This document shows positions 1 to 41,486 of a stretch of 64,000 nucleotides of DNA, piece by piece. The notes below the pieces were generated by a model. It did not search any database. It saw only the letters and a program-made list of their open reading frames with translations, and was not told the DNA's origin. The stretch lies in NCBI GenBank assembly GCA_905221435.1, contig CAJNDD010000009.1:6965-70964 (forward strand). The letters run 5' to 3'. The position numbers were made by a program, and so were the translations under genes. Every line of letters begins with the position of its first letter. The stretch's first letter is position 1. The DNA comes from a bacterium. GTDB taxonomy: Bacteria; Bacillota; Bacilli; Lactobacillales; Streptococcaceae.

Positions 1-2680
1 ATTGATTGAGTGTTTGTTTACTATTTTCTTGATTATAGAATTTAAGTCCTTTGATGATAACTCCATCAACTTCATCCTCGAAAACCAAATCTTCTTGATG
101 GTCATTGATGTATGAAAGAAGTTCCTCCTTCCATCTATCTTTTTCTGCCAATTGTTCACCTTTGGGTTCAATGAAGATTTGAAGATAGTAATCCTTATTT
201 TGAAGAAGTAGGATAAAGTCTGGTTGAAATCCTGAAAAATTGATTTCCCGTGGATTCTCCTCAAATTGGTGCAATTTCAATTGTTCAACTTTATCTGTCC
301 CCTTTAGCATGTTTTCGTCCATCCGAACGAGGAAAACATCACCGTATTGTTCTCTTAGTTCATCAATGTGATTGGCGATAGCATTAACTAGATTTTCTTC
401 ATTTCTATTGATTATAGCAGATTGATAAGCAAAAAAGTCAAATTTTTCAAAACTAATATTAGCTACTTTTTGTTCGATTAAGGAGCTACTCTGTTTAGCC
501 GTATCATAATTAGGTATTCGTTTGCGATAATCAACGAGATATTCTTCAATAGGATATCCAACAAAACGATTCGTACCTCTTGCTTTGCGATAACCTGCCT
601 TTATTTGAGCAGCCAGTAGGTTGACAAAGTTATCAACAATTTTAAGCTTTTCCATAGCTGAAAATTCTTCCACGACAGTTTCTTTTTCTGTTGTAACATA
701 TAATATAAGATTCCGCAAATTTAACCAATTTTCACCCCAAAACTCATCCATAGACTTGAGATTTGGAAGATATCTTTTCAGATTTTCAAAACGGAAAAAA
801 TTAGAGCGACTAATTGATTTTTTAAAGTAACGAATATCAATTCCCCTCAATTGGGACGTTTTTAACTCTATTGCTTCAGCTGAAAGGTAAGCTGTTTCAT
901 AGGTGGATTTAAAATAGGTTACATTGGCTAGCTTAGAAATTTCAATACCATATGCACGTAAATTCACATAGTGACTGTCAGGAATTTCCTTAGTTTCATT
1001 ATAGTAAAGCTTACCTGTTTTAAAGATTTGGGTTTTCTTGAAAGAGGGTTTCAGTTTGATTTCAATTGGAGGATTTTTTTCATCCGTCCCAGTCGCAAGA
1101 TTCATCTTGTCAAGTGATGCCATCAAATTCTTGATGTATTGCGGTTCATTAAGGGTATGGTAGTGTAGTGTTTCCAATAAAAGACTTGCTGTTTCATCTG
1201 ATTCATCAAATCGTCTTTGATAAGAAATCTTTTGATTTAAGGAGAAAGGATTGTATCGCGCCCCACGTCCGATCAACTGAGCCTCGGAATTGGTTGATTT
1301 AGCATCTCTTTTATCATTCATTTTTCCCAAGTTGCTAATACGAACGATATCGTAAAGATTGAGGACATCCCAACCTTCTGTTAATTTTGCTACTGCAAAG
1401 ACTACACGATACAGATTATTGGGCGATTCAAGCGAATTGAGGGCTTGATACTGTCCTGTTTCTAGCAACCCTTTTGAACTACTGTCTGAATCATTTGCAT
1501 TTAGAATTCTAGCTGGTGAAAAACCACGCTTAATTTCTCGAACAACAGTTGAAAGATCATCCTTTTCGAGATAATACTGATAAGCTAGCTGTAGGGTATG
1601 GCTTTGCTCTTCTGATACACTTTTCAATTGTGAAATAAGGAACGCCTTTAAGCTTTCCACGGTCAGATTGTCAATCATCTCATTGAATAGATTGTTTGCT
1701 TCATAGGAAGCATCAATTTTATGTGATTTGAAAAGAATGACTGGTTTTATCTCAATCCCAAATTTTTCTAGAGCAAATTTGCGACGATATTCACTCAGAA
1801 GAACGGTGCTAAGCATATTATCTTCATTGGAATTCCCCGTCTGAATGCGTCTTACATTTTTTGAATATCGCTCTTTGATGTATGAATCCAAGGTATAACG
1901 GTAAATAATCTTATCTCGATATTTTTGATAAATGGTCTCATCGTCAAAATCAAGTGTTGCGGTAAATTCTAGCAAGAGATTATCAGCATGTGCGTGAAGA
2001 AGAGAAAGTAGGCATTTTTCCCATGAGACTTTTTCCAATTCTGCTTTATTTTTCTTTTTCGTAGAAGCAGAATAGTGATGGGCTTCATCCGCCAGAATAA
2101 CCATTTTTGTCTTCTGGTAATCTGTTAATGACATGATATTTTCTGCCTGTGTGAGGAGGTCATTTGTTAATGTTTGAATTGAAACAAACTTAATATTAAT
2201 TACATTTTTATTAGGAAAATCTGGAAATCTTCCTGAAATCTGGTTGATAAAGATATGTTCCCCATCAATTTCTAAGTTGGAATTGAAAAGAAACTTCGTA
2301 GATTGAGCATTCGTTAGATTATCAATGGTCTTACTCAGAACACCATTTGTATTCACTGTAAACAGAAAATTTTGATACCCTTTTTCTTTATAGAGATAGA
2401 GGATTAAACCAGCCATCAAATCAGTCTTTCCCGAACCAGTTGCCATATTGAACATCAGCTGTCTTGGCTTTCGAAACTTGAAAGTATCTGATGCTTGAGT
2501 GTAGTGAAAATAGCGAATAGCTTCACTTTGATAAGAACGTGGTTCATGCTTGAGATTTTCTACAATATACTGTGGTAATTCCCAACCATGCTGTTCGTTC
2601 AAAATATCCATATCCAGCTGTTTCAATTCATCGAAGAGTTCAAAGAACAGTTCTTTTTTCTTTGCTTTTCTAACCATCAT
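1..2680 (-). CDS. res: Type III restriction endonuclease subunit Res (partial, C-terminus beyond window)
   Basis: Reading the minus strand gives one uninterrupted frame from 2680 to the window edge. It holds an SF2 helicase Walker A (MATGSGKT, about residues 79-86), a DEAH box (about residue 198) and, near residue 820-840, a PD...ExK-like nuclease motif (QPDF then IEPKG). This order is that of type III Res subunits, which hydrolyse ATP and cut DNA with Mod after meeting unmethylated asymmetric sites. The first ATG at 2680 overlaps the mod stop codon as ATGA. A second ATG at 2677 is better spaced from the GGGAG Shine-Dalgarno (SD), so either may be used. Translational coupling to mod is expected. 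The stop codon lies outside the window. Family assignment is firm; specificity is unknown. Confidence 0.92.
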   Translation of the reverse strand, partial: MMVRKAKKKELFFELFDELKQLDMDILNEQHGWELPQYIVENLKHEPRSYQSEAIRYFHYTQASDTFKFRKPRQLMFNMATGSGKTDLMAGLILYLYKEKGYQNFLFTVNTNGVLSKTIDNLTNAQSTKFLFNSNLEIDGEHIFINQISGRFPDFPNKNVINIKFVSIQTLTNDLLTQAENIMSLTDYQKTKMVILADEAHHYSASTKKKNKAELEKVSWEKCLLSLLHAHADNLLLEFTATLDFDDETIYQKYRDKIIYRYTLDSYIKERYSKNVRRIQTGNSNEDNMLSTVLLSEYRRKFALEKFGIEIKPVILFKSHKIDASYEANNLFNEMIDNLTVESLKAFLISQLKSVSEEQSHTLQLAYQYYLEKDDLSTVVREIKRGFSPARILNANDSDSSSKGLLETGQYQALNSLESPNNLYRVVFAVAKLTEGWDVLNLYDIVRISNLGKMNDKRDAKSTNSEAQLIGRGARYNPFSLNQKISYQRRFDESDETASLLLETLHYHTLNEPQYIKNLMASLDKMNLATGTDEKNPPIEIKLKPSFKKTQIFKTGKLYYNETKEIPDSHYVNLRAYGIEISKLANVTYFKSTYETAYLSAEAIELKTSQLRGIDIRYFKKSISRSNFFRFENLKRYLPNLKSMDEFWGENWLNLRNLILYVTTEKETVVEEFSAMEKLKIVDNFVNLLAAQIKAGYRKARGTNRFVGYPIEEYLVDYRKRIPNYDTAKQSSSLIEQKVANISFEKFDFFAYQSAIINRNEENLVNAIANHIDELREQYGDVFLVRMDENMLKGTDKVEQLKLHQFEENPREINFSGFQPDFILLLQNKDYYLQIFIEPKGEQLAEKDRWKEELLSYINDHQEDLVFEDEVDGVIIKGLKFYNQENSKQTLNQ

Positions 2681-4542
2681 TTCTCCCTATAAAAACTCTT
2701 ATTAAAATCATAATCTGATTGAGATAATTGCGATTTGATGGTTTCATCACCAATTTCAGAATAGTTGTGATAGAGCTGGTTTTTGTCAATAATTTTTACA
2801 AGAATTTTTTTCTGCATTTCAAAATCTTCATCCCAGATAGATTGGTCAACTTCTTGTAAATCCACTCTGAAATCAAAATCAAGTGTGGCTTTCATGTCAT
2901 CAAAGATAGCCTTTAATTCATCAGGATGTTTAGAGTTAAGAACAGCATCAATAAAGGTCGCATTTTTGTCCATTAACTCAGCATAAATGAATGAACCACC
3001 GCCAGACCAAGCAACATCTTGAGAAATGCCACCTTGTTCTCCATCAATAACTTTCTTTAATCTTTCTATAGAAACTGTTTCAATATAATCCATTTGTTCA
3101 ATACCGATGTACTGACGATTCATTTTATGAGCTACTGCTTGTGTTGTCCCACTACCCATGAAGAAATCAAGAACAATATCTCCTTCTTCACTACTAATTT
3201 TCATCAAATTATAAATAAGTCTTTCAGGTTTTGGAAAATCAAATAACCTATCACCACTAAATAACTCTCTAATCTCCTCAGCTCCACGTTGATTCGTACC
3301 AAATGAGTTATCCCAAAAATCATTTGGTATTTGACCCTCCGAATCTTGTAAATATAGTTTACCATATGGTTGTTCTTGCCCACCTCGTGTCCAATATATC
3401 TTTCCTAAATTATCTAACCGTTCTATTTCTTCTTTCTCTTTCATCCAGGGGCCATAAAGTTTTTTTCCTGTAGGGGTTGTTAGTTCATAATTATATTTAC
3501 CCCTAGTCTTATCCAATAAAATTTGTCGTCTGAAATAACCGTTCTCATCTGAATAACGATATTCTTTTCTAGCTTTGTCGGTTAGTGGTAACTTATTTAA
3601 TTTCCCACTCGATTTCTTATAAATAAGTATATAATCTGTTACTTTTGCAAATTCTCCAATATTTGCTTGATTATCAGATTTTCTCCACGAAATCGTACCA
3701 ATATATTTATCCCCTCCAAATATATTATCTGCTAATAATTTTAATTGAGCATATCCCTCTTCTCCAACTATAATTATGCATAATCCTTCATCAGATAGCA
3801 GCTCCTTGGCAACATCTAATCTATTTTTCATAAAAACTAACCAAGTAGATAATTTAAAATTTGAATTATAATTAAATGCATCACTAGTCTTAGTTTTTTT
3901 AAAATAGTAAGGTGGATCAATAATTATACTTTTAATTTTTCCAGCAAATCGTTTTTTCAAACTGTGGAGTGCTAACAGGTTGTTTCCCTTGATAATCAGG
4001 TTATCCGTATCCTTGATTTCTGATACAGGAGAAGAGCCATTTTTGTCATATTTCTTAGCATTTTTTAAAATCTTTTCATCAAGGAGGACATCAATCTCTT
4101 CTCTAGCAACTATCTCATTTAAAAAGGATTCTTCAGCATCTTCCCTCGATACATCATCTTTAGTCATACCAGCTTTTAAGATACCATCTTTGTAGGGGAA
4201 ATTTAGGACAACATCTGTTGTTTCATCTAGATAGCGATTATTTGTCGCTAATCCGATTTTGTTGGTGTAACGCGTGTAAGAGTTTGACCAATATTCATCA
4301 ACTTCAAGCATTTGAATGATATCATTGATTTTCAAAATTGTCGCACCAGCAATATCCTCGGTAAATGCTTCATTTAGAATTGCATTTGTCAAAATCTTTT
4401 CAACCAACTCAGGTTTATAATTATCTAAATCTACTATAATAGCGTCTTTTTTTAATAGTCCCTCAGCTACATACTGTTCATCAAAGCTTTCTACCACCTC
4501 TCGCAGGGCTTGTTGAATCGCTGTTTCGAATATCTGGCTCAT
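2677..4542 (-). CDS. mod: Type III restriction-modification DNA methyltransferase Mod
   Basis: A 621-residue adenine-N6 DNA methyltransferase of the beta class: the catalytic DPPY motif (residues 209-212) precedes the SAM-binding FMGSGT motif (461-466), with the target-recognition region between them (about 240-440). Mod recognises the site and modifies DNA alone; with Res it forms the nuclease. The start at 4542 has a GAGGG SD six bases upstream, and an in-frame TGA lies just upstream of it, so the protein cannot extend further 5'. Its stop overlaps the res start. The 220 bases upstream hold a leader ORF with a heptanucleotide tract and a terminator-like hairpin, making expression probably phase-variable. 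If so, this is a phasevarion-type regulator. The recognition site cannot be read from the sequence. Confidence 0.95.
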   Translation of the reverse strand: MSQIFETAIQQALREVVESFDEQYVAEGLLKKDAIIVDLDNYKPELVEKILTNAILNEAFTEDIAGATILKINDIIQMLEVDEYWSNSYTRYTNKIGLATNNRYLDETTDVVLNFPYKDGILKAGMTKDDVSREDAEESFLNEIVAREEIDVLLDEKILKNAKKYDKNGSSPVSEIKDTDNLIIKGNNLLALHSLKKRFAGKIKSIIIDPPYYFKKTKTSDAFNYNSNFKLSTWLVFMKNRLDVAKELLSDEGLCIIIVGEEGYAQLKLLADNIFGGDKYIGTISWRKSDNQANIGEFAKVTDYILIYKKSSGKLNKLPLTDKARKEYRYSDENGYFRRQILLDKTRGKYNYELTTPTGKKLYGPWMKEKEEIERLDNLGKIYWTRGGQEQPYGKLYLQDSEGQIPNDFWDNSFGTNQRGAEEIRELFSGDRLFDFPKPERLIYNLMKISSEEGDIVLDFFMGSGTTQAVAHKMNRQYIGIEQMDYIETVSIERLKKVIDGEQGGISQDVAWSGGGSFIYAELMDKNATFIDAVLNSKHPDELKAIFDDMKATLDFDFRVDLQEVDQSIWDEDFEMQKKILVKIIDKNQLYHNYSEIGDETIKSQLSQSDYDFNKSFYREK

Positions 4543-4570
4543 ACAAGTCCCTCACTTTCATACACAACAG

Positions 4571-4608
4571 AAAAGACCTTCTCACAAAAATGTGAAAAAG
4601 TCTGTTTT
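4571..4608 (-). terminator. Intrinsic-terminator-like hairpin between leader ORF and mod (candidate attenuator)
   Basis: On the minus strand, the arms at 4603-4591 and 4586-4574 pair over 13 bp (two G-U wobbles) around a TTTT loop. AAAAC precedes and TTTTCTGTT follows, the form of an intrinsic terminator. It lies inside the mod transcript, after the leader stop used in the present repeat register and before the mod start. Ribosomes reading the long leader frame would cover it; ribosomes stopping at 4634 or 4642 would not. The hairpin is seen; attenuation is inferred. It could also work in the opposite direction. Confidence 0.65.
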
Positions 4609-4633
4609 AGGGCTTGACAAAAAATACGCTTGA

Positions 4634-4765
4634 TTACATAATCAGCGTGAGCTGTGAGCTGTGAGCTGTGAGCTGTGAGCTGTGAGCTGTGAGCTGTGAG
4701 CTGTGAGCTGTGAGCTGTGAGCTGTGAGCTGTGAGCTGTGAGCTGTGAGCTGTGATTGCTTTCAT
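4634..4765 (-). CDS. Repeat-containing leader peptide upstream of mod (short register)
   Basis: The ATG at 4765 lies nine bases after an AAAGGA SD, and an extended -10 box lies upstream. An in-frame ATG at 4774 overlaps the SD and is less likely. The peptide starts MKAI and runs through the heptamer tract as a seven-residue period (TAHSSQL). With 15 heptamers it ends at TAA 4636-4634, giving 43 residues. With 14 copies it would end at TGA 4644-4642. With 13 or 16 copies it would read on through 36 further codons with no stop and end at TGA 4541-4539, overlapping the mod ATG as ATGA (77 residues for 16 copies). Its role is probably to carry ribosomes to mod rather than as a protein. No family is recognised. 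Confidence 0.6.
   Translation of the reverse strand: MKAITAHSSQLTAHSSQLTAHSSQLTAHSSQLTAHSSQLTLIM
4651..4755 (-). repeat. Perfect tandem heptanucleotide tract, 15 copies
   Basis: Fifteen identical, uninterrupted copies of GCTGTGA on the plus strand (TCACAGC on the minus, coding strand of mod), 105 bases in all, flanked at 4645-4650 by a copy lacking one base. Perfect tracts of this length are typical slipped-strand mispairing sites. Because 7 is not a multiple of 3, each gain or loss of a copy shifts the leader frame. TCACAGC has no stop in any frame on the minus strand, whereas the plus strand reads TGA in every frame, which fits selection for readability towards mod. The true copy number may be mixed in the population. 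Confidence 0.97.
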
Positions 4766-4796
4766 ACCAATCATTCCTTTACTTTTTGATAGTTCT

Positions 4797-4805
4797 ATTA
4801 TATCA
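4797..4805 (-). promoter_or_regulatory. Extended -10 promoter for leader-mod-res
   Basis: The minus strand reads TGATATAAT (TGn-TATAAT extended -10), with the hexamer at 4802-4797. No convincing -35 lies 17 bases further upstream, which extended -10 promoters can do without. A start of transcription near 4790 would leave a short leader carrying the AAAGGA SD and the ATG at 4765. Confidence 0.6.
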
Positions 4806-4933
4806 AAATTTCTAAATTTTGCATATTTGCTTTCCCTGACGGACAGTCATGTATAAACCACTTAGAAAATATGATTTATGGCTACACATATACTAAATGA
4901 AGTACATTTTGAATTGGAGAAGTCTGTCCTATT

Positions 4934-4965
4934 AAAAGACGATCTCCGCTTGGAAATCGTCTTTT
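4934..4965 (-). terminator. Intrinsic terminator downstream of the acid phosphatase gene
   Basis: Inverted arms of ten bases (AAAAGACGAT and ATCGTCTTTT) around a 12-base loop. T-runs on both strands make it potentially bidirectional. It lies after the phosphatase stop (5029) and upstream of the mod leader promoter, insulating the two minus-strand units. Confidence 0.75.
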
Positions 4966-5028
4966 TTCGCTATTCTCGCAAATACGATATCTTGTAGTTG
5001 GTGTAAACTGGTAGATAGCTCTCTTATT

Positions 5029-5886
5029 TTATTTATCAAAACCTTGTAAGTTTTTTTGGCGCTCTTCAGTTTGACCCTTAGCATCCAATTTATTACCATT
5101 GTAAACAGTGCTTTCCCATGATCCGTACATTGGGTTAGGGAAAATGATGAATTTCTCACCAAACTCTTTTTGTAATTCCTCTAATTTTTGGTCGCGCTCA
5201 GTTTCAGAGGTCTTTGAAAACTCTGCAAAGTCCACAAGATTGTCTCCTAGTAGCATGACTAAGTTGGTTTTTTCTTGGACTGCTTGTCTACGACCTTCTT
5301 TAGATTTGACGCCTTTTTCTAAGAACATGAGATGATCGCGGCTTTGTACAGGAATTCCTTCATTTTCTAGGTTTTTGATCGTATCATCTACCTGTTCTAT
5401 CGTGCGGTCAGATACATAGTAAATTTGGACACCGTTTTGGTCTGCAAATTGGAGAAAGTCTTTAGCACCTGGTACAGCCTTGGCTGCGGCTTTTTTTACC
5501 CAGACATCCCAGTTTTCTGGGGTAAATGCTGTTCCATCTTTGACATTTTGCGCTTGATAAGGGCTATTGTCTAATACGGTTTCGTCCAAGTCCAAAACGA
5601 TAGAGTAGGGTTTATCTGTCTGTGTTTTTAGTAGTTCTTTCAAACGATCAGTAGCGACATTGTAACCTTGTAGATAGAGTGCCTTGGTCTCAGCTGCTTT
5701 TTGATACCAAAGAGTTGACATAGTATTTTCTCTTGAACGCAACTGATCATAGGTCATGGTAACCTGATTATCAGATGTATTACTTTGTGTTGTCTGTGAA
5801 TTTGCCGAATTTGTGCCACAGCCAGTCAGTAAAATGACGGAAGTAAGTGTAGAAGCAATTGTAATAGTAACTTTGGATATTTTCAT
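5029..5886 (-). CDS. HAD-family acid phosphatase lipoprotein (LppC / e(P4)-like 5'-nucleotidase)
   Basis: A 285-residue exported lipoprotein. The signal peptide ends in a lipobox (LLTGCG, Cys about residue 23). The class B/C HAD acid-phosphatase core follows, with DLDETVLD as the nucleophile motif (near residue 100), an SDR segment and a later LLGDN acidic motif. Such enzymes hydrolyse nucleotide monophosphates and other phosphate esters at the cell surface, releasing nucleosides for uptake. The start at 5886 follows a perfect AGGAGG. The gene is monocistronic, with a terminator at 4934-4965. The promoter carries a cre-like sequence between -35 and -10, suggesting carbon-catabolite control. 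The closest named relatives are streptococcal LppC and Haemophilus e(P4); the precise substrate is not readable. Confidence 0.9.
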   Translation of the reverse strand: MKISKVTITIASTLTSVILLTGCGTNSANSQTTQSNTSDNQVTMTYDQLRSRENTMSTLWYQKAAETKALYLQGYNVATDRLKELLKTQTDKPYSIVLDLDETVLDNSPYQAQNVKDGTAFTPENWDVWVKKAAAKAVPGAKDFLQFADQNGVQIYYVSDRTIEQVDDTIKNLENEGIPVQSRDHLMFLEKGVKSKEGRRQAVQEKTNLVMLLGDNLVDFAEFSKTSETERDQKLEELQKEFGEKFIIFPNPMYGSWESTVYNGNKLDAKGQTEERQKNLQGFDK

Positions 5887-39401: not shown

Positions 39402-41486
39402 ATGTCAAACAATGAAAACGCTAAAGGTACGTTTCGTAAATTTTTAGATGGTTTTAAGCGTCTCATAAAAAGAGGAAATCAAGAGGAAGAGTTGTCCGCT
39501 ACAAGAGAAAATGAGGGCGAGGATACAGAAGTAGTAGGAGAAAGCATATCTCCTGAAGAAAGTGAAACCTTTCTTATTGATAAGGCTTTAGAGTCTATTC
39601 AGTACTACGATCGTTTGGATGTGATGAATATAGGTGAGGAAAGCAGTTCCGAAGAATCTCTATTGCCAGAAAGTGACTCTAGTCTTTCTCAAGAAAAAGA
39701 ACCAGCTAAGAGTCAAACGGTTAGTGCATCACATTCTTTGGAAACTAGCCTCTCTAAAACTACAGATTCTCGAAAAACAAGAGGCTTGAAGAGTACAGCA
39801 GACTCCATTTCACTATCATTAAGCCTCGAAAACAAAAAAACATCAAGTAGTTTATCTGTTCTTGAGTCAGCCTCAGCCAGCCGTTCAACGGAGCAATCAC
39901 TGAGCGCTAAGACTGCAACATCGCTAAGTGTTTCTATCTCAGAATCCGACTCGGCTAGTCTTTCTCGAGTAGAGTCACAGACTTTATCCCGCGAGTCAGC
40001 CTCAGCCAGCCGTTTAGCAGAGCAATCACTGAGCGCTAAGACTGCAGCATCGTTAAGTGTTTCTATCTCAGAATCCGACTCAGCTAGTCTTTCTCAAGTA
40101 GAGTCGCAGACTTTATCTCGCGAAACATCTCTTAGTTTTTCAGAGTCAGCCTCAGCTAGCCGTTCAGCGGGACAATCACTGAGCGCCGAGGCTGCAACCT
40201 CTCTAAGTGCATCCGTTTCAGAAACCGAATTAATCAGCCTTTCTCAAGTGGAACCACAGACTTCATCAGTTGAAGAATCTCTTAGTTTTGCTATTTCAGA
40301 GTTCGAATCACAAAGTGCCTTTCTTGAACAATCTCTAAGTCAGTATGGTTCTCACTTGTTTAGCCTTTCTGTTTCAGCCTCAGCCTCAGCTTCGCACAGT
40401 GTTTATGTAGAGGAGTCTCTAAGTCAAGCAGCTTCAGAGTCTCACAGTCTGTCCGTTTCGGAATCAGCCTCCTATAGTACATCTGTTTCAGCCTCTACTT
40501 CATACAGTATTTATGTAGAAGAGTCTCTGAGTCAAGCAGCTTCAGAGTCTCACAGTCTGTCCGTTTCGGAATCAGCCTCCTATAGTGCATCTGTTTCAGC
40601 CTCTACATCGTACAGTGTTTATGTAGAAGAGTCTCTGAGCCAAGCAGCTTCAGAGTCTCACAGTCTGTCCGTTTCAGCCTCAGCTTCGCACAGTGTTTAT
40701 GTAGAGGAATCTCTAAGTCAAGCAGCTTCAGAGTCTCATAGTCTGTCCGTTTCGGAATCAGAATCCTATAGAGCATCCGTTTCAGCCTCAGCTTCTCATA
40801 GTGTCTATGTAGAGGAATCTCTAAGTCAAGAGGCTTCAGAGTCTCACAGTCTGTCCGTTTCGGCCTCAGCTTCGCACAGTGTTTATGTAGAGGAATCTCT
40901 AAGCCAAGAGGCTTCAGAGTCTCACAGTCTGTCCGTTTCGGAATCAGAATCCTATAGTGCATCTGTTTCAGCCTCAGCTTCGCACAGTATTTATGTAGAA
41001 GAGTCTCTGAGCCAAGCAGCTTCAGAGTCTCACAGTCTGTCCGTTTCGGAATCAGCCTCCTATAGAGCATTCGTTTCAGCCTCAGCTTCGTACAGTGTTT
41101 ATGTAGAGGAATCTCTAAGCCAAGAGGCTTCAGAGTCTCACAGTCTGTCCGTTTCGGAATCAGAATCCTATAGAGCATCTGTTTCAGCCTCTACATCGTA
41201 CAGTGTTTATTTAGAGGAATCTCTAAGTCAAGAGGCATCCTTATCGCATAGTTTCTCTGTATTGGAGTCGGTGTCCCAAAGTTTGTCGCTTGAGCACTCC
41301 CTTAGTCTATCTGCTTCTGAATCGTCTTCTCAAAGTTTGGTGATAGCAGAATCTCTCAGCGTTAGCCAAGAAGTCTCAACTGATTTAGTGGCTTCAGAGT
41401 CAGCAACTGATAAAACGACTTTTGACTTTAGTAGCACTACACAAGACTTATCAAAATTGACATTGATAAGCAAAAGAAACAAGTAG
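39402..41486 (+). CDS. Serine-rich repeat protein lacking signal peptide and wall anchor
   Basis: A 694-residue protein. Residues 1-30 are basic and possibly amphipathic (FRKFLDGFKRLIKRG), 31-110 acidic, and 110-660 almost entirely Ser-rich repeats of SxSxS type. The C-terminus is LTLISKRNK. Two repeat families are visible: three copies of 43-50 residues (about 155-295) and eight copies of a 36- or 26-residue unit starting VYVEESLSQ (334-601). There is neither the long signal peptide of SecA2-exported serine-rich adhesins nor an LPXTG motif, and the next 400 bases show no frameshifted anchor. It has an ideal promoter and an intact frame, so it is unlikely to be a dead fragment. Function unknown; cytoplasmic scaffold, non-classical export or peripheral membrane binding are possibilities. 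Confidence 0.8.
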   Translation: MSNNENAKGTFRKFLDGFKRLIKRGNQEEELSATRENEGEDTEVVGESISPEESETFLIDKALESIQYYDRLDVMNIGEESSSEESLLPESDSSLSQEKEPAKSQTVSASHSLETSLSKTTDSRKTRGLKSTADSISLSLSLENKKTSSSLSVLESASASRSTEQSLSAKTATSLSVSISESDSASLSRVESQTLSRESASASRLAEQSLSAKTAASLSVSISESDSASLSQVESQTLSRETSLSFSESASASRSAGQSLSAEAATSLSASVSETELISLSQVEPQTSSVEESLSFAISEFESQSAFLEQSLSQYGSHLFSLSVSASASASHSVYVEESLSQAASESHSLSVSESASYSTSVSASTSYSIYVEESLSQAASESHSLSVSESASYSASVSASTSYSVYVEESLSQAASESHSLSVSASASHSVYVEESLSQAASESHSLSVSESESYRASVSASASHSVYVEESLSQEASESHSLSVSASASHSVYVEESLSQEASESHSLSVSESESYSASVSASASHSIYVEESLSQAASESHSLSVSESASYRAFVSASASYSVYVEESLSQEASESHSLSVSESESYRASVSASTSYSVYLEESLSQEASLSHSFSVLESVSQSLSLEHSLSLSASESSSQSLVIAESLSVSQEVSTDLVASESATDKTTFDFSSTTQDLSKLTLISKRNK
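40401..41204 (+). repeat. In-gene tandem repeats, 108- and 78-base units
   Basis: Eight in-frame units, six of 108 bases (36 codons) and two of 78 bases (26 codons), total 804 bases. They encode VYVEESLSQ(A/E)ASESHS-type segments, and a ninth degenerate copy follows at 41205. The short unit equals the long one minus ten codons, so unequal exchange within serine blocks is evident. Copy number is expected to vary between strains, and assembly from short reads may miscount it. Confidence 0.9.

Follow-up and report, generated by a model that had tools for sequence, protein, structure and literature searches.

A repeat-bearing leader as a candidate phase switch for DNA methyltransferase genes in streptococci

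A short leader ORF built on perfect heptamers precedes a type III modification gene (mod) in the window analysed here, a 64,000-nucleotide stretch of a Streptococcaceae contig (CAJNDD010000009.1, assembly GCA_905221435.1). We consider it probable that this leader is a cassette acting as a phase switch, in which the register set by the array decides whether ribosomes cross a hairpin and are delivered to the methyltransferase start. The sequence shows a promoter-like −10, a Shine-Dalgarno (SD) sequence and start codon, a repeat unit whose length is not a multiple of three, immediate stops in two frames and a third frame that crosses both hairpins to finish on the gene start, with all three registers found among genomes. 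Gain or loss of repeats, presumably through copy-number slippage within a strain, would set whether ribosomes cross the leader hairpins; these hairpins would terminate transcription when free of ribosome cover, and ribosomes lying over them would prevent the premature stop. An OFF ribosome would leave 30 or 38 nucleotides before the main hairpin, and an ON ribosome would cross it and end on the overlapping gene start, where coupling would raise mod translation. Our best reading, which is also the simplest account and lies close to that of the Pil1 pilus locus of Streptococcus gallolyticus, is thus that leader translation would both suppress termination and couple into the methyltransferase. 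An earlier note on this DNA had proposed that slippage governs hairpin crossing and coupling into mod, with one register in three ON and the present assembly OFF, and this logic is supported and fits 47 related cassettes.

Leader layout and register arithmetic

On the minus strand the array is followed by TGATTATGTAA, by two hairpins each with T residues after it and then by mod (Table 1), confirming in the window the order given earlier (promoter, SD, leader ORF, 15 perfect heptamers, hairpin, mod). Tandem Repeats Finder called the array at 4647-4755 with 100% matches; its unit length is not a multiple of three, and it is embedded in a leader ORF that has an SD and a start of its own. The −35 element of the leader promoter is poor in the window. 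Our script located both SD and ATG of the leader in 32 cassettes, and 30 of these have a TATAAT no more than 60 nucleotides 5' of that SD. A promoter between the repeat and mod, which the earlier note had named as evidence against its own reading, did not appear: no promoter-like site of at least 9/12 was found on the minus strand of that interval.

Table 1. Features of the leader, mod and res in the window
Feature	Position	Strand	Basis or remark
Leader promoter, extended −10 TGATATAAT	4797..4805	-	read from sequence
Leader SD AAAGGA	4775..4780	-	read from sequence
Leader ORF, present register (15 units, 43 codons)	4634..4765	-	ATG 4765; second in-frame ATG 4774
15 perfect CAGCTCA heptamers	4648..4752	-	15.0 units; stop-free in all three minus-strand frames
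TGA, leader stop at 2 mod 3 copies	4642..4644	-	same place in 46/48 cassettes; at most 6 codons further in the other 2
TAA, leader stop at 0 mod 3 copies (present)	4634..4636	-	stop at same place in 48/48 cassettes
Conserved leader tail frame DYVIKRIFCQALKQTFSHFCEKVFSVVYESEGLV	4539..4643	-	ON register only; its TGA end lies inside the ATGA at the mod start
First terminator-like hairpin (4649-4625) and six T	4619..4649	-	contains both OFF stops; −7.8 kcal/mol (window tail = L157 row)
Promoter-like TTGACA-17-CATAAT	4614..4642	+	inside leader; points back into array
Main terminator-like hairpin, 13 bp (4603-4574), then T	4571..4603	-	fold, terminator search and alignment
SD of mod, GAGGG	4549..4553	-	read from sequence
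mod, type III modification subunit, 621 aa	2677..4542	-	PF12564, PF01555; PADLOC MTase_III
res, type III restriction subunit	1..2680	-	PF04851; PADLOC REase_III; runs off window end

Recalculation of the register arithmetic in the earlier note gave exactly the same result. With copy numbers of 1 mod 3 (10, 13, 16 or 19 units) the leader ends as ATGA on the mod ATG (4542). With 0 mod 3, as in the 15 copies present here, it stops at the TAA (4636-4634), 30 nucleotides before the main hairpin, and with 2 mod 3, for example 14 copies, at the TGA (4644-4642), 38 nucleotides before it. The mod frame itself is closed by stops between the array and ATG 4542. The present assembly, with its 15 copies, is therefore predicted to be OFF or low, and the SD of mod together with leakage through the terminator may give a basal level in the OFF state. 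Both subunits of a type III restriction-modification system are present, res being cut by the window end. Given that mod and res also overlap as ATGA, each ORF overlaps the next from leader through mod to res in the ON register.

The closest mod detected belongs to S. oralis subsp. tigurinus AZ_3a (96%), and the contigs of this strain and of Streptococcus sp. Marseille-Q5986 start within the same array. The window probably derives from an oral streptococcus of this group. A related type III mod without the cassette was seen at six loci (L035, L036, L040, L041, L042 and L043), which have another upstream element in common; this is an inverted repeat (CCTTCCTTTAT...ATAAAGGAA and the like) at most about 160 nucleotides 5' of the mod match, and is possibly another attenuator. 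Elsewhere in the window, positions 39864-41236 hold long serine-rich tandem repeat arrays with units of 78 to 294 bp, which in our own reading resemble part of a large surface protein.

A cassette recurring before different known or predicted methyltransferases

A blastn search of 284 Streptococcus genomes with 112 nucleotides of the leader, most of the array being excluded from the query, found the leader at 47 places in 41 genomes (40 of the 276 more complete genomes). All 47 places were fetched with up to about 5 kb downstream and, together with the window, gave 48 cassettes for comparison, which are related sequences and hence not independent. The arrangement is thus not peculiar to this operon, with 47 further cassettes across the genus. 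Their tails, commonly DYVIGRVFCQALKQAFSHFCEEVF and the like, follow arrays of CAGCTCA or CAGTTCA (7 bp), AGCAC or AAATC (5 bp) and CAGCTCAC or CACAAGCT (8 bp), none of these unit lengths being a multiple of three. Six cassettes are without a detected array (L147, L152, L156, L165, L174 and L186), some of them retaining one or two units. In L142, L151, L156 and L226, which are AGCAC-type or array-poor, the upstream parts differ and the tail is alike, as if array and tail had been exchanged separately.

Representatives of the genes behind the cassette were scanned against family libraries (Pfam, NCBIfam and PADLOC). A type III mod was found in the window, L145 and L150, an EcoRI-type methyltransferase in L141 and L144, and an N6 methyltransferase with type IIG as best PADLOC match in L142, L146, L153, L160, L180, L181 and L185. 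The genes of L143 and L166 matched nothing in Pfam, NCBIfam or PADLOC; both carry NPPY, which we take to be a motif of amino-methyltransferases. They represent two large families of about 770 aa that adjoin the cassette in 16 of the 48 cases. The L143 gene has at least 1666 relatives, the names among those listed being only hypothetical or uncharacterized protein, and neither NPPY family had a sequence match to a solved structure in the PDB. With the remaining targets, truncated genes included, placed by hand via similarity or N-terminus, the 48 comprise 6 type III, 6 EcoRI-type, 17 type IIG and 16 NPPY-family genes and 3 fragments.

The frame of the leader is kept up to these different genes. 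A stop of the leader frame lies within 12 nucleotides of the gene start in 46/48 cassettes and 34/36 distinct junctions; the start choice favours near starts, and the other two frames serve as the control, with such a stop in 0/48 each. Gene starts were picked by ORF length and SD from −25 to +60 nucleotides of the leader stop, those of L147, L148, L152, L185 and L186 being set by hand or homology. The two misses are L147, whose tail is cut inside the main hairpin, and L152, which is degenerate. Junctions take the forms ATGA, TAATG, TAGTG, ATGNNTAA and the like, and the distance from stop motif to gene start ranges from 77 to 133 nucleotides across cassettes, indicating that the stop-start overlap is not one frozen sequence. 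Both non-leader frames stop within 20 nucleotides after the array in 48/48 cassettes. When the leader tail was aligned among relatives, pN/pS was 0.48 for the leader frame and 0.82 and 0.88 for the other two, as the earlier note had predicted; the difference points to a modest reading-frame constraint, in a stretch that is also held by structure.

Registers could be read in 35 cassettes, with 10 ON, 14 OFF at TGA, 9 OFF at TAA (including the window) and 2 stopping elsewhere. In the other 13 of 48 the register was unreadable: ten contigs have an end in or near the array, the leader start is gone from L161 and L162, and L163 contains Ns. Like loci differ in state, as for L182 (6 units, ON) and L183 (20, OFF), for L171 (7, ON) and L170 (15, OFF), and for L176, L177 and L178 (OFF, ON and OFF), this copy-number variation being between genomes of different species. 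Several cassettes are natural variants. L161 and L162 have lost the promoter along with the leader start, and the gene is cut to 55 aa. L152, L165 and L186 have two units or fewer, an OFF register and broken genes. In L147, which has no array, the leader frame reads into a broken main hairpin (−5.3 kcal/mol) that precedes a 782-aa open frame. Against this pattern, L174 has a single unit and a fixed OFF register, yet an intact 773-aa gene.

Used as a protein query, the open frame of the window itself had 237 relatives; the 120 of them listed include P0001, an ON-register leader that has the window's tail and comprises 30 member sequences. The cassette was absent from 50,697 phage and 72,556 plasmid records. 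A covariance model run on 395 genomes of the order, Streptococcus genomes among them, matched 75 at E up to 0.01. Its top matches were nine places in eight genomes, all Streptococcus, at 79.9-105.8 bits; all others scored at most 41 bits, and no score above 41 bits came from outside Streptococcus among the 395. Seven weaker loci were inspected, and one of them (L226, Streptococcus) is a decayed cassette; the other six (L225, L227, L228, L231, L234 and L235) resemble common terminators or chance matches and were rejected.

Further GAGCA arrays were observed in other streptococcal genomes (L187, L189, L190 and L192), before or inside genes unlike methyltransferases; in L190 the frame of the array continues, by our own reading, into an acyltransferase-like frame. 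In L191 (1500-1640) another leader comes after eight GAGCA units; its frame (AEVISNLFSVYPKTLSILEIGGVF) runs to a TAATG junction with a further type III mod-like gene, so that this may be a second leader working by the same logic but unrelated in origin.

We lean towards the view that streptococci carry an interchangeable phase-switch module, placed before unrelated methyltransferases of types III, II and IIG and made up of promoter, array, two-frame stop, tandem terminators, coupling tail and an opposite-strand promoter. If so, leader-switched phasevarions would be a genus-wide class missed by surveys of repeats inside methyltransferase genes. Counts of intragenic repeats would then understate phase-variable methylation in streptococci, since the repeat sits in one ORF and the enzyme in another, and any annotation given to the leader is that of a hypothetical protein. 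Leader attenuation would extend from pili to restriction and epigenetic systems, with one register of three ON, and copy number alone would suffice to predict the state of many restriction-modification genes.

Hairpins and alternative explanations

The first hairpin is formed by the array end and the stop motif, and its strength ranges from −4.0 to −9.6 kcal/mol among the cassettes; all but one of the 32 distinct rows have TTTTTT or CTTTTT directly after it. The main hairpin folds at −16.7 kcal/mol in the window, and 2 of 200 shuffles were as stable (8 of 200 with a different cut); it is the sole terminator-like site detected in 4300-5200 (0.5 expected), and the T run after its stem is short, with three or four T, which weighs against our reading. 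The leader frame crosses this stem and the OFF stops lie well upstream, as in a leader-peptide attenuator. The hairpin was aligned over 30 distinct tails from the 48 cassettes (alignment A1), L147, L150 and L152 being omitted for their differing tails and the rest as duplicates. Over these 30 tails, 97.7% of the 390 cells of the 13-bp stem are paired; all but two of the 13 pairs vary, three of them with changes on both sides, and the covariation score exceeds 500 of 500 shuffles and every slid version of the stem. Two of the five stem measures were unremarkable, 25 of the 500 shuffles having at least as many double-change pairs and 145 at least as many pair types. RNAalifold recovered 12 of the 13 pairs unaided, and none of the 4227 models of Rfam 15 matched 4300-5100 at E up to 1.

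This conservation of the hairpin and the following T run across cassettes argues against translational coupling alone, in which the transcript would always run through, the hairpins would be non-terminating and ribosomes would simply re-initiate at the overlap. We regard that explanation as unlikely, though it can call on leader stops that overlap or nearly overlap the gene start in 46 of the 48 cassettes, on an outer stem in the window that pairs CAAGCCCU with AGGGACUUG at the mod SD, and on L150, whose tail is without the usual stem and folds the SD stretch shut. Such SD pairing is not general, however. Sequestration of the SD was considered as a general coupling device and discarded: 19 of 34 distinct junctions lay below their shuffles with a median z of −0.18, and the window junction (the same as that of L157) is more open than shuffles, with z of 1.6. 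Hairpin attenuators with a leader or a short U tract have moreover been tested in Pil1 and tvrR. In the phase switch that we favour, coupling would consequently rest on ribosome delivery and re-initiation, SD sequestration not being general.

The promoter-like site on the opposite strand suggests another kind of control, in which TTGACA-17-CATAAT would drive an antisense RNA through the array and the leader start, with array length tuning collision or pairing. The site reaches at least 10/12 with a spacing of 17 in 30 of 30 distinct tails, and it is one of just six sites of at least 11/12 in the whole window, both strands counted. Its conservation is partly forced: the two-frame stop motif, the T run and conserved codons share the same letters and can account for much of it, and L151 and L156 keep the OFF stops but have a weaker opposite-strand −10. 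Antisense control would also leave the open leader frame and the stop-start overlap unexplained, and we think it very improbable. Slightly less credible still is the absence of any regulatory role, in which case the array would be a neutral 5' expansion, the hairpin would simply end transcription arriving from upstream, and mod would be expressed regardless. The intact gene of L174 in its fixed OFF register would suit this view, but the layout recurs before unrelated genes with an open frame, OFF stops and reading-frame bias, and the interval between array and mod is free of sense promoter-like sites. The phase switch thus remains our preferred reading.

Comparison with known systems

In translation-coupled attenuators of the kind known from E. 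coli pyrBI the leader frame crosses the terminator and a close ribosome blocks it, with nucleotide supply setting the distance between ribosome and polymerase. Here a heritable repeat count would set the state instead of nucleotide supply.

S. suis ModS, a phase-variable type III methyltransferase with a short repeat, is ON in one of three copy numbers, as seen by Western blot and methylome (PMC6265453, PMC8125046). The present system resembles it as a streptococcal type III methyltransferase with a short-repeat switch and one of three copy numbers ON. By contrast, the ModS repeat is described as lying inside the mod ORF (the ModS and ModA arrangement), and in the window the repeat is outside the mod reading frame, that frame being closed between array and start. 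In the ModS-like loci L015 and L019 the frame of the AGCAC or AGAAC repeat continues straight into mod. L193, which has both published ModS primer sequences, carries 36 GAGCA units whose frame enters the ModS N-terminus and soon meets a stop, a layout that matches S. suis strains described as being without a 119-bp linker. That linker was considered as a counterpart of this leader and rejected: L015 has about 40 mod-frame codons absent from L193, as would be expected if the linker belonged to the coding sequence of mod, an identification of our own from comparing the two loci.

Rapidly varying restriction-modification in streptococci is likewise described for the pneumococcal type I systems ivr and tvr, whose specificity changes by recombination and not by frame slippage (PMC6265443, PMC4263131, PMC6771155). 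The tvr system includes a tested weak hairpin attenuator with five U, which acts on the recombinase gene tvrR, unlike the methyltransferase targets here.

The closest precedent is found in S. gallolyticus Pil1 and Pil3, where a leader ORF preceded by an SD contains short GCAGA repeats and repeat number shifts the leader stop relative to a stem-loop terminator (PMC3894217, Danne et al. 2014). Pil1 mutants altered in leader start, terminator or repeat register differed in transcription, which showed that leader translation across the stem raises it. The earlier note had regarded the placing of the repeat in a leader of its own, over a terminator, as a different logic from that of known phase-variable mod genes; the repeat does lie outside the mod ORF, but the logic has this precedent. 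The OFF stop falls well before the stem in both systems, at least 28 nucleotides in Pil1 (PMC3894217) and 30 or 38 here. In the published description, however, the Pil1 and Pil3 targets are pili and not DNA methyltransferases, two of three Pil1 registers are high whereas a single register crosses the stem in 48/48 cassettes, and the long Pil1 leader ends within or downstream of the stem rather than on the start codon of the target. A shared cassette before unrelated genes is not described in the passages of PMC3894217 consulted. In the wider literature searched by title, abstract and passage, with subscription papers and preprints outside it, this leader was not described before restriction-modification genes, and the words of the leader peptide gave no match. 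Given that only one register crosses the stem, we class the cassette as a variant working like Pil1 and not as a Pil1-type member. With respect to the pilus precedent, the novelty lies in the targets, in having one register of three ON, in the overlap of leader stop and gene start, and in the spread.
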